Assembly (NCBI RefSeq): GCF_001602525.1
Contig: NZ_LSYT01000002.1
Coordinates: 248,001 to 312,000, forward strand
Origin: Flavobacterium chilense
GTDB taxonomy: Bacteria; Bacteroidota; Bacteroidia; Flavobacteriales; Flavobacteriaceae
DNA: 64,000 nucleotides
Direction: 5' to 3'
The position numbers and the translations under genes are program-made. Under the pieces are notes generated by a model that had not been told where the DNA came from, searched no databases, and worked only from the letters and a program-made list of their open reading frames with translations. Numbering within the stretch: position 1 is the first letter of the stretch; each line of letters starts with the position of its first letter. This document shows, in pieces, positions 9,889-62,158 of the stretch.

Positions 9889-10034
9889 AAAAAAGCAAAG
9901 CACCGGGACTGATAAAGCTTGTTTGTTCCCATAAAAGACAAAGCACAGGGATTGATTCTGCTGAAATGTAACCCTTAAAAAAACAGAGCATTGGGACTAA
10001 TAAAGCTAGTTTGTTCCCATAAAAGACAAAGCAC
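9889..10034. repeat. 44-bp units forming an 88-bp direct repeat
   Basis: Four 44-base units start at 9889, 9933, 9977 and 10021. Units 1 and 3 match closely (GGGACT.ATAAAGCT.GTTTG core), and so do the starts of units 2 and 4 (AAAAGACAAAGCAC). The clearest reading is therefore an 88-base duplication (9883-9946 versus 9971-10034) of a sequence that itself had a weaker 44-base period. It is noncoding and lies just upstream of the GNAT gene. Confidence 0.8.
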
Positions 10035-44300: not shown

Positions 44301-45342
44301 AACTGCTACATGGTATACTTCGTTAACCGGAGGTACTAGTTTTGCAACCGGATCATCTGTAACTGCAACACCTACAGTAAACAATACTACGTATTGTGTA
44401 GCTTGTGAAACAGCATATTGTGCAAGTGACAGGGTATTAGTAAAAACAGTTACAGGTACTCCATCAACTTCATCCACTCAAACTGTTACAGCTTGTGGTA
44501 CTTATACCTGGGCTGAAGATGGAAACACTTACACTACATCGGGAACTTATACTCATACGGTAGGTTGTGATACGAAAACTTTAAATTTAACCATAACTCC
44601 ACCAACTTCATCTGCTCAAACGGTATCAGTTTGTGATACTTATACATGGGCTGAAGATGGAAACACTTACACTACTTCAGGAACTTATACTCATACAGTA
44701 GGTTGTGATACCAAAACTTTAAATTTAACTATAACTCCATCAACTTCATCTGCTCAAACGGTATCAGTTTGTGATACTTATACATGGGCTGAAGATGGAA
44801 ACACTTACACTACTTCAGGAACTTATACTCATACTGTAGGTTGTAATACCAAAACTTTAAATCTTACCATAAACAATTCATCAGCAATTGATAATACTGT
44901 AAGCTTAAATTCAGGTTTATTAACTTCAAATCATTTAGGTGCTACTTACCAATGGTATAAATGTCCTAATACTTTACTTACCAACGAAACAAACCAATCG
45001 TATACTCCTTTGACAGTGGGCGATTATAAGGTAGAAATTACTGTTGGTAACTGTACTGTAACTTCTAATTGTATTACTGTTAGCAGTCTTGCGGTAGAAC
45101 AATTTAACCAAAACGAATTTAAAATTTATCCTAACCCAAGCAAAGGAACAGTAAATATTGTTACTTCTTATGAAGGAAACTATATCATTATTGACCAATC
45201 AGGGAAAAAGATAAAATCAGTAAATCTTGATGAAAATGTGGTGAATACTATACATTTGGAAAATGTTTCTGATGGGATTTATATTATCAAAAGCATAAGC
45301 GACAGTAAAGTAAAAGCCCAGAAATTTTTCATAAAAAAATAA
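41320..45342 (+). CDS. Giant beta-helix surface protein with T9SS sorting domain
   Basis: A 1340-residue exported protein. In order: a signal/anchor helix (5-25); a Ser/Lys-rich spacer; the start of a DUF11-like domain (76-135); a cadherin-like segment (about 140-228, GTDSFTYTLTSGSGKTGTG); a parallel beta-helix rich in short N/T/S repeats (about 230-860); the strands LPAGKSTVITFSATINAAN, which look like the rest of the split DUF11 domain (about 903-950); three 46-residue repeats (about 1049-1186); and a T9SS type A sorting domain (about 1267-1340, YPNPSKG to FFIKK). It should be secreted by the T9SS and anchored at the cell surface. Last gene of the collar operon. Confidence 0.88.
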   Translation: MKKNKLLIVIILLGFLSFGMSYSSLIKENFVAPLVKKLAESEKKSVNTISTDKITKNKSNTFPAKEKSIDKTVVAATISLTNAVAVNGGGNALPGSQLDFTLTLTNTGIDDATGTTFQDILDSNLTLVPGSLKATPIAANDTYNCIGNVGITLNAAQGILSNDASPDGTPLSAVVLANPTHGTVSLSANGSFTYNPTAGYSGTDSFTYTLTSGSGKTGTGTVNIIISAPIFFVNSSVATNGNGTLASPFKTLDNATGTGSNPIFIYTGTGSSGTTLTLSANQKLVGQGATASLISILNIVVPTYSNALPSTGGTNPTFSVLNINSNNDIEGITLSGTNATIAGSNVGTLKVRDASINGGSAVAVNISSGGALDCIFKSISANGAPKGISVNNSTGSFQVTGTGTTAGSGGTIQNITNRGAEFISCSNISLKNMNFTNSTTSSAICSSPAVDNSSCNGSIHLKAVTGVTLDNISITGTNNAVGININNVTNFALSNSTLTNCGSNTTGSDVGGIYALNLGGTSSITNTNINDSWGRGFYAYNGILSQNPTLNMTVTGCQFKNSFNKANGGSNFIFQGYGSSSTTLTLKGNDFSNAKEYGLQLNFGGTSINTIQVGGNIITEGNTINAATISPGSNGLSLQAVSAATVNYNVINNIIKSSFSAGFTCNIGNQGTGTMKGRINSNIIDGAGIGSSCNGISVAAYEKTKHITEIKNNTITNVSTYGIVSESNDNNITNGNARMDATIQNNTINLVTNGYAHLAVISVAFSPSSTLISAANVGNNTTNSPVTGLGAATFDVLSQGANSQVILQGPTTPYSSGSGDRTAALTTYWNANNGAGPRTAIDEQGGGTIVPGIVLIPDNSLASKMAPPVNIEETPLITEAQNTNNLTNKPATQNSTAKNASGETISAGPFTLPAGKSTVITFSATINAANTLPANTCSVTNQASVSGSNFATVNSNITTTSIKPANATVTTDTQNITCLGSTTVTLNATCPLATTATWYTSLTGGTSFATGSSVTATPTVNNTTYCVACETAYCASDRVLVKTVTGTPSTSSTQTVTACGTYTWAEDGNTYTTSGTYTHTVGCDTKTLNLTITPPTSSAQTVSVCDTYTWAEDGNTYTTSGTYTHTVGCDTKTLNLTITPSTSSAQTVSVCDTYTWAEDGNTYTTSGTYTHTVGCNTKTLNLTINNSSAIDNTVSLNSGLLTSNHLGATYQWYKCPNTLLTNETNQSYTPLTVGDYKVEITVGNCTVTSNCITVSSLAVEQFNQNEFKIYPNPSKGTVNIVTSYEGNYIIIDQSGKKIKSVNLDENVVNTIHLENVSDGIYIIKSISDSKVKAQKFFIKK
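44463..44876 (+). repeat. Three tandem 138-bp repeats inside the giant surface gene
   Basis: The unit is 138 bases (46 residues), with a shared core TWAEDGNTYTTSGTYTHTVG. Unit starts are 138 bases apart. Copies 2 and 3 are identical over about 95 bases in a row, so the last duplication is recent. Each unit has two Cys that could pair. Confidence 0.9.
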
Positions 45343-60308: not shown

Positions 60309-60986
60309 ATGATAAATGATATTTTGGCTGGACTGCCATGGGGACTTTTTTTAAGTTTTATGGTAGGTCCGGTATTTTTTATACTATTAGAAACCAGTAT
60401 TACAAAAGGATTCAGAGCTGCAATAGTCTTTGATTTTGGTGTAGTATTAGGTGATATTTTTTTTATAGCAATTGCTTATTTAGGAAGTTACAGATTAATT
60501 CAGAGCTTAAAAGATAAACCTGCACTTTTTATTTTTGGCGGAATTATTATGCTGGCTTACGGTATTATTTCTTTTGTGAAATTAAAAAAAGAAGAGAAAA
60601 TTAACGACGAAGAAATTGATCGTGACATTATCAAAAGAAACTATGGTAGTTTGTTTATAAAAGGCTTTTTACTCAACGTTATCAACATTGGTGTATTAGG
60701 TTTCTGGCTGGCAGTTATTATTTCTGTAGGACCAAAATTAGAAATGCAGAACTCCAGAATGTTTACTTTTTTTACGTCAGTAATTATAACTTATTTAGTA
60801 GTAGACTGTCTTAAAATATTATTAGCCAAACAATTAAAATCAAAAATGACACCTACTAACATCTTAAAAATCAAAAAAGGAATTAGTATCGTTTTAATGA
60901 TTTTTGGAGTAGTGTTAATAACTCAGGGATGGTTTCCAAAAGAAAAAGAAATGGTTAAAAATGCTTTCGAAAAAATGGATAAGTAG
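60309..60986 (+). CDS. LysE-family exporter
   Basis: A 225-residue inner-membrane protein with six helices and the LysE signature FMVGPVFFILLETSITKGFRA split across residues 17-37. LysE/RhtB proteins export amino acids or small metabolites; the substrate is not predictable. Ends at a clear terminator. Confidence 0.9.
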   Translation: MINDILAGLPWGLFLSFMVGPVFFILLETSITKGFRAAIVFDFGVVLGDIFFIAIAYLGSYRLIQSLKDKPALFIFGGIIMLAYGIISFVKLKKEEKINDEEIDRDIIKRNYGSLFIKGFLLNVINIGVLGFWLAVIISVGPKLEMQNSRMFTFFTSVIITYLVVDCLKILLAKQLKSKMTPTNILKIKKGISIVLMIFGVVLITQGWFPKEKEMVKNAFEKMDK

Positions 60987-61092: not shown

Positions 61093-61194
61093 TTGTCATT
61101 TCGACGAAGGAGAAATCTCCGCGATATGCTCGACAAAGATTGGACAATTGTTGCGGAGTTACTTGCGAAGATTTCTCCTTCGTCGAAATGACAA
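61093..61194. repeat. REP/BIME-like palindrome, 26-bp arms
   Basis: The arms 61093-61118 and 61169-61194 are perfect inverted copies (GTCATTTCGACGAAGGAG core) enclosing 50 bases. The centre has its own pair CTCCGC and GCGGAG (61117-61122, 61153-61158). No protein is supported. Its size and two-level symmetry resemble REP/BIME elements mobilised by RAYT transposases; none is in this window. Confidence 0.8.
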
Positions 61195-61241
61195 GATTGT
61201 GTTTAATTCTTCATTTAAATATAAAAATTAACCATTAAAAA

Positions 61242-61632
61242 AAACCTCCAAAGCAATTTGAAGGTTTTTGAGGTATCGTCCGGATTCGAACGTAAATCTT
61301 TATCTAATTTTTTCTAAAAATTGCTCATAAAAAAAAACTCCAAGTTTCCTTGAAGGTTTTGAGGTATCGTCCGGATTCGAACGTAAATCTTTATTTAATT
61401 TTTTCTAAAAATTACTCATAAAAAAACCTCCAAGTTTCCTTGAAGGTTTTGAGTCATCGTCCGGGTTCGAACGTAAATCTTTATCTAATTTTTTCTAAAA
61501 ATTATTCATAAAAAAACCTCCAAGTTTCCTTGAAGGTTTTGAGTCATCGTCCGGATTCGAACGTAAATCTTTATCTAATTTTTTCTAAAAATTATTCATA
61601 AAAAAACCTCCAAGTTTCCTTGAAGGTTTTTG
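61242..61632 (-). repeat. Four tandem 90-91-bp copies of the tRNA-Cys 3' end plus terminator
   Basis: Each unit carries the last 20 bases of tRNA-Cys (T-arm half and acceptor; minus strand), then the hairpin AACCTTCAAGG/AAACTTGGAGG with a T-run, then a constant AT-rich spacer. The tRNA 3' copies are at 61270-61291, 61361-61382, 61451-61472 and 61541-61562, the true one at 61632-61653. They vary slightly (GGTATC, GTCATC versus GGCATC). Transcripts leaving the tRNA would pass five terminators. Confidence 0.9.
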
Positions 61633-61703
61633 AGGCATCGTCCGGATTCGAACCGGAGTAGGAGCTTTTGCAGAGCCCAGCCTAGCCGCTCGGCCACGAC
61701 GCC
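61633..61703 (-). tRNA. tRNA-Cys (anticodon GCA)
   Basis: 71 bases without CCA. The acceptor GGCGTCG/CGATGCC has one G-U pair; the anticodon stem GGGCT/AGCTC surrounds the loop CTGCAAA with anticodon GCA; the T-stem TCCGG/CCGGA surrounds TTCGAAT; the discriminator base is U, as in tRNA-Cys. Confidence 0.95.
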
Positions 61704-61798: not shown

Positions 61799-62158
61799 TT
61801 ACCCTCTAATCTCCGTCATTTTTATGGTAACTGTTTCAACATCACCACCAATAGGAGGATTTATTTTAGAAACCCAAACCGTTGTTTTTTCTACTGTTTT
61901 TATTTCTTCAAGCACACGAATATTGATTCTTTTGGCAACATGTTCTAATAAATGCGAACGAATTGCCATTTCTTCGGTAACAATTTTGTTCAAATGAACA
62001 TAATCAACCGTGTCCAGTAAGTGATCTGTCTGAGCTGATTTCTGCAAATTAGTTTTAACTTTTAGATCAACTGTATAATCAGATCCAATTTTTCCTTCTT
62101 CAATCATACATCCGTGGTACGAAAAAGTACGGATGTTTTTTAATTTTATAACTCCCAT
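61799..62158 (-). CDS. folB: Dihydroneopterin aldolase
   Basis: A 119-residue folate-pathway enzyme: MGVIKLKNIRTFSYHGCMIE, a VDLKVKTNL strand, the segment DTVDYVHLNKIVTEEMA (about 49-65) and the C-terminal PPIGGDVETVTIKMTEIR. It cleaves dihydroneopterin to 6-hydroxymethyl-dihydropterin. Length is normal. It is divergent from glnS, 107 bases away. Confidence 0.95.
   Translation of the reverse strand: MGVIKLKNIRTFSYHGCMIEEGKIGSDYTVDLKVKTNLQKSAQTDHLLDTVDYVHLNKIVTEEMAIRSHLLEHVAKRINIRVLEEIKTVEKTTVWVSKINPPIGGDVETVTIKMTEIRG

Follow-up and report, generated by a model that had tools for sequence, protein, structure and literature searches.

At the tyrT locus of Escherichia coli, the 3' end of the tRNA gene is repeated in tandem downstream of the gene, with spacers between the copies, and these repeats are associated with rtT RNA. 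Direct repeats of a tRNA gene end are also found at the far border of genomic islands and prophages, which use tRNA genes as attachment sites. Other families of bacterial repeats, namely REP/BIME and MITE, are short, palindromic, non-coding, and dispersed, with a conserved core. Some transposases (IS1634 group) produce long target duplications, and a palindrome placed between direct repeats promotes slippage. In Salmonella, rtT RNA is given as a 175-bp variable-number repeat in a table of PMC2658671, and hence changes in the copy number of such repeats are known. We found no description of such repeats in flavobacteria in the literature searched, which included passages of PMC5395568, PMC2658671, and PMC3364575.

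We analyzed a window of 64,000 nucleotides of Flavobacterium chilense (contig NZ_LSYT01000002.1, positions 248,001 to 312,000), to which all the coordinates below refer unless a locus is named. It contains a functional tRNA-Cys(gca) gene at 61632-61703 on the minus strand (ARAGORN; Rfam tRNA 50.6 bits). A gene for a FolB dihydroneopterin aldolase (PF02152) lies upstream (61799-62158, minus strand) and a convergent gene for a LysE-type translocator (PF01810) lies downstream (60309-60986, plus strand). The last 21 bases of the tRNA (61632-61652, the repeated part X) recur in four additional tails downstream of the gene. The original prediction described units of 90-91 bases with the tRNA-Cys 3' end and a terminator. 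This was confirmed by TRF (61258-61653, period 90, 4.4 copies, 95% matches), by a repeat search of the window (start-to-start spacing of 91, 90, and 90), and by the alignment of the tails, whose last 20 bases have 1, 2, 1, and 1 mismatches to the gene. The tail and the terminator were correctly recognized as parts of the unit, but a 25-base palindromic module (M) present in every unit had not been named.

All components of the array are on the minus strand. Reading outward from the gene, the first unit has a terminator-like hairpin with a T run directly after the tRNA (61600-61630), the first copy of M (61569-61593, AATTTTTAGAAAAAATTAGATAAAG), and the first truncated copy of the tRNA-Cys 3' end, called X' (61541-61561). 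The second unit has its hairpin at 61510-61540, M at 61479-61503, and X' at 61451-61471. The third has them at 61420-61450, 61389-61413, and 61361-61381, and the fourth at 61329-61360, 61298-61322, and 61270-61290, the latter being the distal tail. A terminator-like hairpin and T run follow each tail copy, including the distal one (61237-61268), after which there is only a decayed half module. In total, the array has four modules and five terminators, and is far above chance expectation.

The likeness to tyrT drawn in the original prediction is fair as a description, since at both loci the 3' end of a tRNA gene is repeated in tandem behind the gene, in variable copy number. They differ in the size and sequence of the unit. 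Furthermore, the module of Flavobacteriaceae is shared with other tRNA genes, 5S rRNA, and 5' ends of genes, and across genera, including at tRNA-Cys in 14 genera other than Flavobacterium, which goes beyond a simple tandem duplication; our array is, for its part, known from sequence alone. To our knowledge, a shared module and sites at 5' ends, 5S, and ribBA are not part of the tyrT/rtT picture. The RtT family of Rfam showed no homology in the window, where the tRNA alone reaches the gathering score. The explanation that we favor, and hold to be rather probable, is that Flavobacteriaceae carry a dispersed mini-element, palindromic and located at the edges of stable-RNA genes, with the gene end copied beyond it, and that the array is one of its resident copies.

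The module is a 25-base AT-rich palindrome (AATTTTTA-NN-AAAAATTA-NN-TAAAG) found between the terminator and the next tail, which in the window array reads AATTTTTAGAAAAAATTARATAAAG. It is the most conserved part of each unit. Apart from its N positions, most columns of M, like those of TTCGAATCC, have a conservation of 0.9-1.0 among 64 internal units; the other columns of the tail are at 0.6-0.95 (0.6-0.7 for the tail GCC) and the terminator stems vary. The terminator types tabulated across loci show turnover, with no apparent rule for a native terminator. Many columns are invariant or nearly so in a set of 61 module rows that covers the loci of Cys, Leu, Ala, Ser, 5S, and ribBA as well as five loci in other genera; the rows were picked from profile hits and thus favor conserved copies. 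The genome of the strain (5.92 Mb) has, at up to three mismatches, the four modules of the array and two other matches, both with three mismatches, whereas a reversed control pattern had one match.

Several readings of M or of the element were tried and rejected. In the stem of M, 84.8% of the cells pair, compared with 44-76% when the stem is slid. However, an RNA structure does not explain the conservation, as covariation in the stem is not above that of shuffled sequences (13 double-changed cells vs 18.3, score of 0.042 vs 0.060); M is conserved mainly in sequence, not by covariation. A promoter reading of the module is unsupported as well, in that the promoter consensus, TAnnTTTG or TTG-spacer-TAnnTTTG, is absent from both strands of the window array. 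Dif/Xer and CRISPR-like readings were dropped for want of evidence.

To study the distribution of the array in the genus, we used a sample with one genome per species. A query composed of the tRNA and the array matched 145 of 150 genomes, and we compared the tRNA-Cys regions of 142 of these, in all of which ARAGORN identified tRNA-Cys. Two or more units, and up to nine, were identified with the unit profile at 75 of the 142 loci, a lower bound because several loci end inside the array, at the end of a contig. A wider contig search gave at least 118 stretches; among the matches listed, Flavobacterium fryxellicola (L200) has about 16 modules. A tRNA in range was absent in 12 locus-strand rows from this search. 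The LysE-like neighbor is still downstream of tRNA-Cys in 122 of the 142 loci. In a LysE tree of 120 rows, the presence of the array requires at least 30 changes of state, and only 2 of 500 shuffles were as low. Hence, the array is clustered by descent, but it has often been lost or regained.

The repeats might also be scars left at attachment sites by integrative elements using tRNA-Cys, as proposed in the original prediction. The direct repeats of the tRNA 3' end resemble those at tRNA attachment sites, and the T-loop is a usual crossover region for integration at tRNA genes. Yet, a regular expression for the tyrosine-recombinase motif, used without a positive control, had no match downstream of tRNA-Cys in the 142 loci (up to 5 kb searched, less than 1 kb in 11 loci truncated by the end of a contig). 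The LysE-like neighbor is within 4.7 kb in the 122 loci, which therefore lack a large island, whereas the other 20 are uninformative. Searches with exact patterns and blastn gave no match in viral contigs, phages, and plasmids. Finally, neither an island nor an integrase was seen, the units are mostly of 64-94 bp, and the same module is found with different cores at other types of genes (5S, ribBA) and at 5' ends of tRNA genes, which is a misfit to the core of one integrase. The proposal is thus unsupported, and we regard it as extremely unlikely.

An element inserted between copies in a relative had been named as potential support for attachment sites. Such insertions exist in two loci (L208, positions 90-2200, and L343, positions 1219-2926), and another one lies after the array in L024. 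L343 has two reading frames that we assume to be IS3-like, and L024 presumably has an IS21-like helper gene. Judging by eye, we read the insertions inside arrays as ordinary IS elements striking the array. Two matches concern contigs with unexpected labels. A tRNA-Cys array of the Flavobacterium type is present in a contig labelled as a Rhizobium MAG (L197), which is likely mis-binned. A single match to the module-plus-TTCGAATCC pattern in a Treponema MAG contig (L213), with no tRNA in the locus, is probably due to chance.

We then considered M apart from tRNA-Cys. The pattern of M was positive in 53 of 150 and 75 of 348 genomes of the genus, and the reversed control pattern in none; such searches require exact or near matches and are biased towards conserved copies. 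From the hits not looking like tRNA-Cys, we fetched 55 loci (15 and 40). Hits resembling known tRNA-Cys arrays, as well as G098, G583, and G711, were not taken from the search of 348 genomes. The named loci and those with G handles partly repeat the same species. By sequence, M is on the 5' side of tRNA-Leu(taa) in 16 of the 55 loci and of tRNA-Leu(caa) in 12. It is on the 3' side of tRNA-Cys in 17, of tRNA-Ser(gga) in 4, and of tRNA-Ala(ggc) in 2. Three loci are 5S-like, and in one (L339) M precedes ribBA, as identified with Pfam. One additional Ala locus and further Ser loci are among the matches listed (together L164, L180, L187, L212, and L234, some of which repeat the same genomes). The 5S case is certain at L330, where Rfam places the 5S rRNA at 1140-1249 and M starts at 1297. 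The copies in L318 and L358, at contig ends, align to the 3' half of 5S but have no Rfam 5S hit. In these two loci, a Flavo-1 RNA (RF01705) lies about 1 kb or less from the 5S-like copy.

Each class has the same order outward from the gene: the gene end X, a filler F, M, a short spacer s, and a truncated copy X' of that very end. A direct repeat of the upstream sequence (the gene or the preceding unit) was found after M in 506 of 561 testable hits, compared with 20 of 359 control positions, at a score of 24. The numbers are 528 and 85 at a score of 20, and 413 and 3 at a score of 40. This test is redundant in species, and 12 of the 573 hits were untestable; the duplicate loci L031-L040, L153-L158, L277-L306, and L362 had been set aside. 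The unit is mostly of 64-72 bases at Ser, Ala, and Leu, where it lacks a terminator, and of 86-94 bases at Cys, which includes a hairpin of about 24 bases. The copied piece of the gene end has about 11 bp at Leu, about 21 bp at Ser, and 70 bp or more at 5S and ribBA. Modules at 3' sites and those at 5' sites are oriented differently with respect to transcription.

These loci are informative on whether the array arose by local tandem duplication at tRNA-Cys, that is, by one event of slippage or unequal crossover, with the array being kept by unequal exchange and gene conversion and nothing being mobile. The original prediction had favored tandem duplication given the constant spacer. The spacing of 90-91 bases fits this idea, as do the greater likeness of units within arrays and the match of the tails to the resident tRNA (see below), the slippage promoted by a palindrome between direct repeats, and the variable-number rtT repeat of Salmonella (PMC2658671). 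Simple tandem duplication is nevertheless insufficient by itself, because the same module is found at tRNA-Ser, tRNA-Ala, tRNA-Leu (on the 5' side), 5S, and ribBA, in each case next to the end of the respective gene, and at tRNA-Cys in the 14 other genera. Local duplication explains the growth of the array, but not the spread of the module, and as a full account we find it doubtful. The dispersal of the module at the edges of RNA genes thus points to a dispersed boundary element, not to local slippage alone.

Comparisons of occupied and empty sites, made in three pairs of loci, locate this boundary. At tRNA-Leu(caa), L328 has two units (about 68 and 65 bases) and L381 has none. The native leader (GGATGCTTATTTGTGGGTGCAAATG) is close behind the distal X' in the former and close behind the end of the tRNA in the latter. 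The 3' side of tRNA-Ser shows the same pattern in L320 (unit of 66) and the empty L437. Another Ser pair, L310 and L432, fits less cleanly, with a decayed copy in between. From these pairs, a unit of about 65-68 bases sits at the mature edge of the gene at Leu and Ser. The copy beyond it, of about 11 bp in the case of Leu and about 21 bp in that of Ser, resembles a target duplication. None of the array-less relatives that we examined provided a clean empty site for tRNA-Cys. In four of them (L084, L102, L104, and L105) a half module follows the tRNA-Cys terminator, which reads best as the loss of an array, and in two (L089 and L103) there is none.

At Leu, the units separate the gene from the likely promoter (TACATTTG) and are located in what is likely the pre-tRNA leader. 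This is one of the arguments for an rtT-like functional RNA, in which the units would be transcribed and processed to RNAs with tRNA tails that may affect tRNA-processing enzymes or serve as a decoy, the latter being the idea of the original prediction. Each unit at Cys has a tRNA tail and a terminator, as one might expect from such an RNA, and the first unit plus the following tail, a stretch that includes the terminator, gives a better RNA fold than 200 shuffled sequences (z of -3.67). Long hairpins including the copy of the gene end fold in the examples tried at Leu (z against shuffles of -2.53 in L350, but only -0.98 in L360), but not at Ser and Ala. Against a functional RNA, the Cys units are beyond a terminator, the array lacks the TAnnTTTG box on both strands, internal tails drift while terminators turn over, and the copy at Leu, read in the sense of the module, is antisense to the tRNA. 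Given also that nothing but the tRNA attains the Rfam gathering score in the window, an rtT-like role seems very improbable, and the decoy finds no support here.

The module extends beyond the genus. The pattern of M was found in 10 of 397 genomes of a sample of the family (one of Flavobacterium and nine from six other genera), always at tRNA-Cys, and the reversed control gave none. We then built a sequence-only model of M from the 61 rows and searched 388 genomes of the family with E-values up to 0.001, which gave hits in 29. In 20 of these, a lower bound given the strict filters, the hit is 3' of tRNA-Cys. They include three genomes of Flavobacterium and 17 genomes from 14 of the 236 other genera; five of the 17 had contributed rows to the model; the pattern search had already revealed eight of the 17, and the remaining nine are new. 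At its 3' edge, the model includes a few tRNA bases at most, and hence the association with tRNA-Cys is not built in. The hits of the other nine genomes are away from tRNA-Cys (E-values of 2.5e-5 to 9.6e-4), as are two further weak ones (G000 and G063). The copy X' starts near the anticodon loop in most of the arrays of other genera that we inspected, and at the T-loop in most Flavobacterium. A tRNA-Cys copy of the former type (GCAAAACC...), close to the 3' half of the tRNA, was observed in most of L363-L368, L370, L371, L409-L411, L415, L417, and L420. There is no clear X' in L418 and L369.

To understand how arrays change, we scored the modules of the 32 arrays with at least three module hits. 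The means are 30.8 bits for the first module, 30.9 for the middle ones, and 21.8 for the last, which is below the first in 24 of the 32 arrays (Wilcoxon p = 0.0008). The lower scores of the last modules show that units decay outward. Lone modules average 24.6 bits (n = 35). Units of the same array have a likeness of 0.881 (n = 116), higher than that of units from different species (0.803, n = 1500). The tails match the resident tRNA at 5.113 of 6 positions, compared with a mean of 4.902 and a maximum of 4.991 in 2000 permutations, a procedure that ignores relatedness. In genomes with a variant tRNA, exactly the same variant is present in 4 of 10 X' copies, which come from two genomes, but not in the other 6. 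These data suggest a modest degree of concerted evolution. The renewal of units from the side of the gene is likely, although less firmly established than their outward decay.

These scores also bear on whether M is a site for a host protein, with a function in the nucleoid, insulation, replication, or termination, selected beside highly transcribed RNA genes. The many invariant or nearly invariant columns of the 61 rows and the presence of the module at tRNA-Cys in 14 other genera could be expected of such a site. On the other hand, 67 of the 142 loci of the genus have fewer than two units (some being cut by contig ends), the LysE tree requires its 30 or more changes of state, lone and distal modules score lower than first ones, and the module is not oriented in the same way to transcription at 3' sites as at 5' sites. 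We consider a host site quite unlikely.

We return to the mini-element. It would consist of the filler, the module, and the short spacer, about 45-57 bp at Ser and Leu, and would have its own terminator at Cys. It lies right at the border of a stable-RNA gene, the end of which is repeated beyond the element in the same orientation and in truncated form, as in a target duplication. New units would arise beside the intact gene, through another insertion or through recombination of X with X', and older units would lie farther out and decay there. Our data establish how the units are laid out and dispersed, that they are placed at the gene boundary at Leu and Ser, and that they decay distally. We infer that the element is mobile, that new units arise on the side of the gene, and that M could be the recognized site; movement might occur in trans, by a putative recombinase or transposase, or by recombination stimulated by the palindrome. 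Each type of locus could, however, trace to one old event, and so mobility in the present does not follow.

The element shares with REP/BIME and MITE a short, palindromic, non-coding, and dispersed module with a conserved core and, as in MITE, copies of one conserved sequence are dispersed at unrelated loci. It differs from them in that the module is at few loci per genome (six matches in that of F. chilense, in contrast to the many intergenic copies of REP/BIME), is tied to the ends of stable-RNA genes, and is joined to a truncated end of the host gene. MITE have target duplications of fixed length, whereas the copied piece varies here (about 11, 21, and 70-80 or more bases). Large duplications of variable length recall the IS1634 group, from which the element is set apart by its AT-rich palindrome and its placement at the edge of RNA genes. 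The variable length fits no standard transposase and counts against a transposon. In the fetched loci, we saw no parental or other transposase, no mobilizing enzyme, and no autonomous version of the element. There is a fair chance that the element is a class of its own. More tentatively, it is possible that this is a class of self-propagating DNA elements that home to the edges of stable-RNA genes, copy the gene end outward at each insertion, form arrays that age outward, and depend on a novel recombination system recognizing the AT-rich palindrome.

What seemed to be the curiosity of a single locus is thus an element found in 15 genera with sharp rules: a module, the boundary of an RNA gene, a copy of the target end, and outward decay. 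Should it be mobile, it would reveal a new recombination activity on the ends of tRNA and rRNA genes in a large bacterial group, one that reshapes the leaders and trailers of pre-tRNAs. It also offers a natural test for the origin of the tandem repeats of tRNA ends known from tyrT.

Some minor observations concern other repeats. A second palindrome (CCCGAAGCTTCGGG and variants) replaces the loop in many X' copies, in the T-loop of tRNA-Cys or in a helix of 5S, with examples in L064, L067, L122, L200, L318, L330, L343, and L363-L365. It has 43 occurrences in the 89,557 bp that lie no more than 100 nt from a module, compared with 9 in the 1,255,687 bp elsewhere in these loci (20 loci, redundant in species); the exact 14-mer is absent from the F. 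chilense genome. The window itself has a 43-bp tandem repeat at 9891-10034 (3.3 copies, 67% matches, TRF) and a 138-bp one at 44458-44872 (3 copies, 92% matches, TRF), the latter probably made of repeats inside a coding sequence. Beyond the array, at 61093-61194, there is an imperfect inverted repeat of 50 nt with a gap of 2 nt (GTCATTTCGACGAAGGAGAAATC...). It is probably a dispersed intergenic repeat, with similar sequence after the tRNA-Cys region in several relatives.
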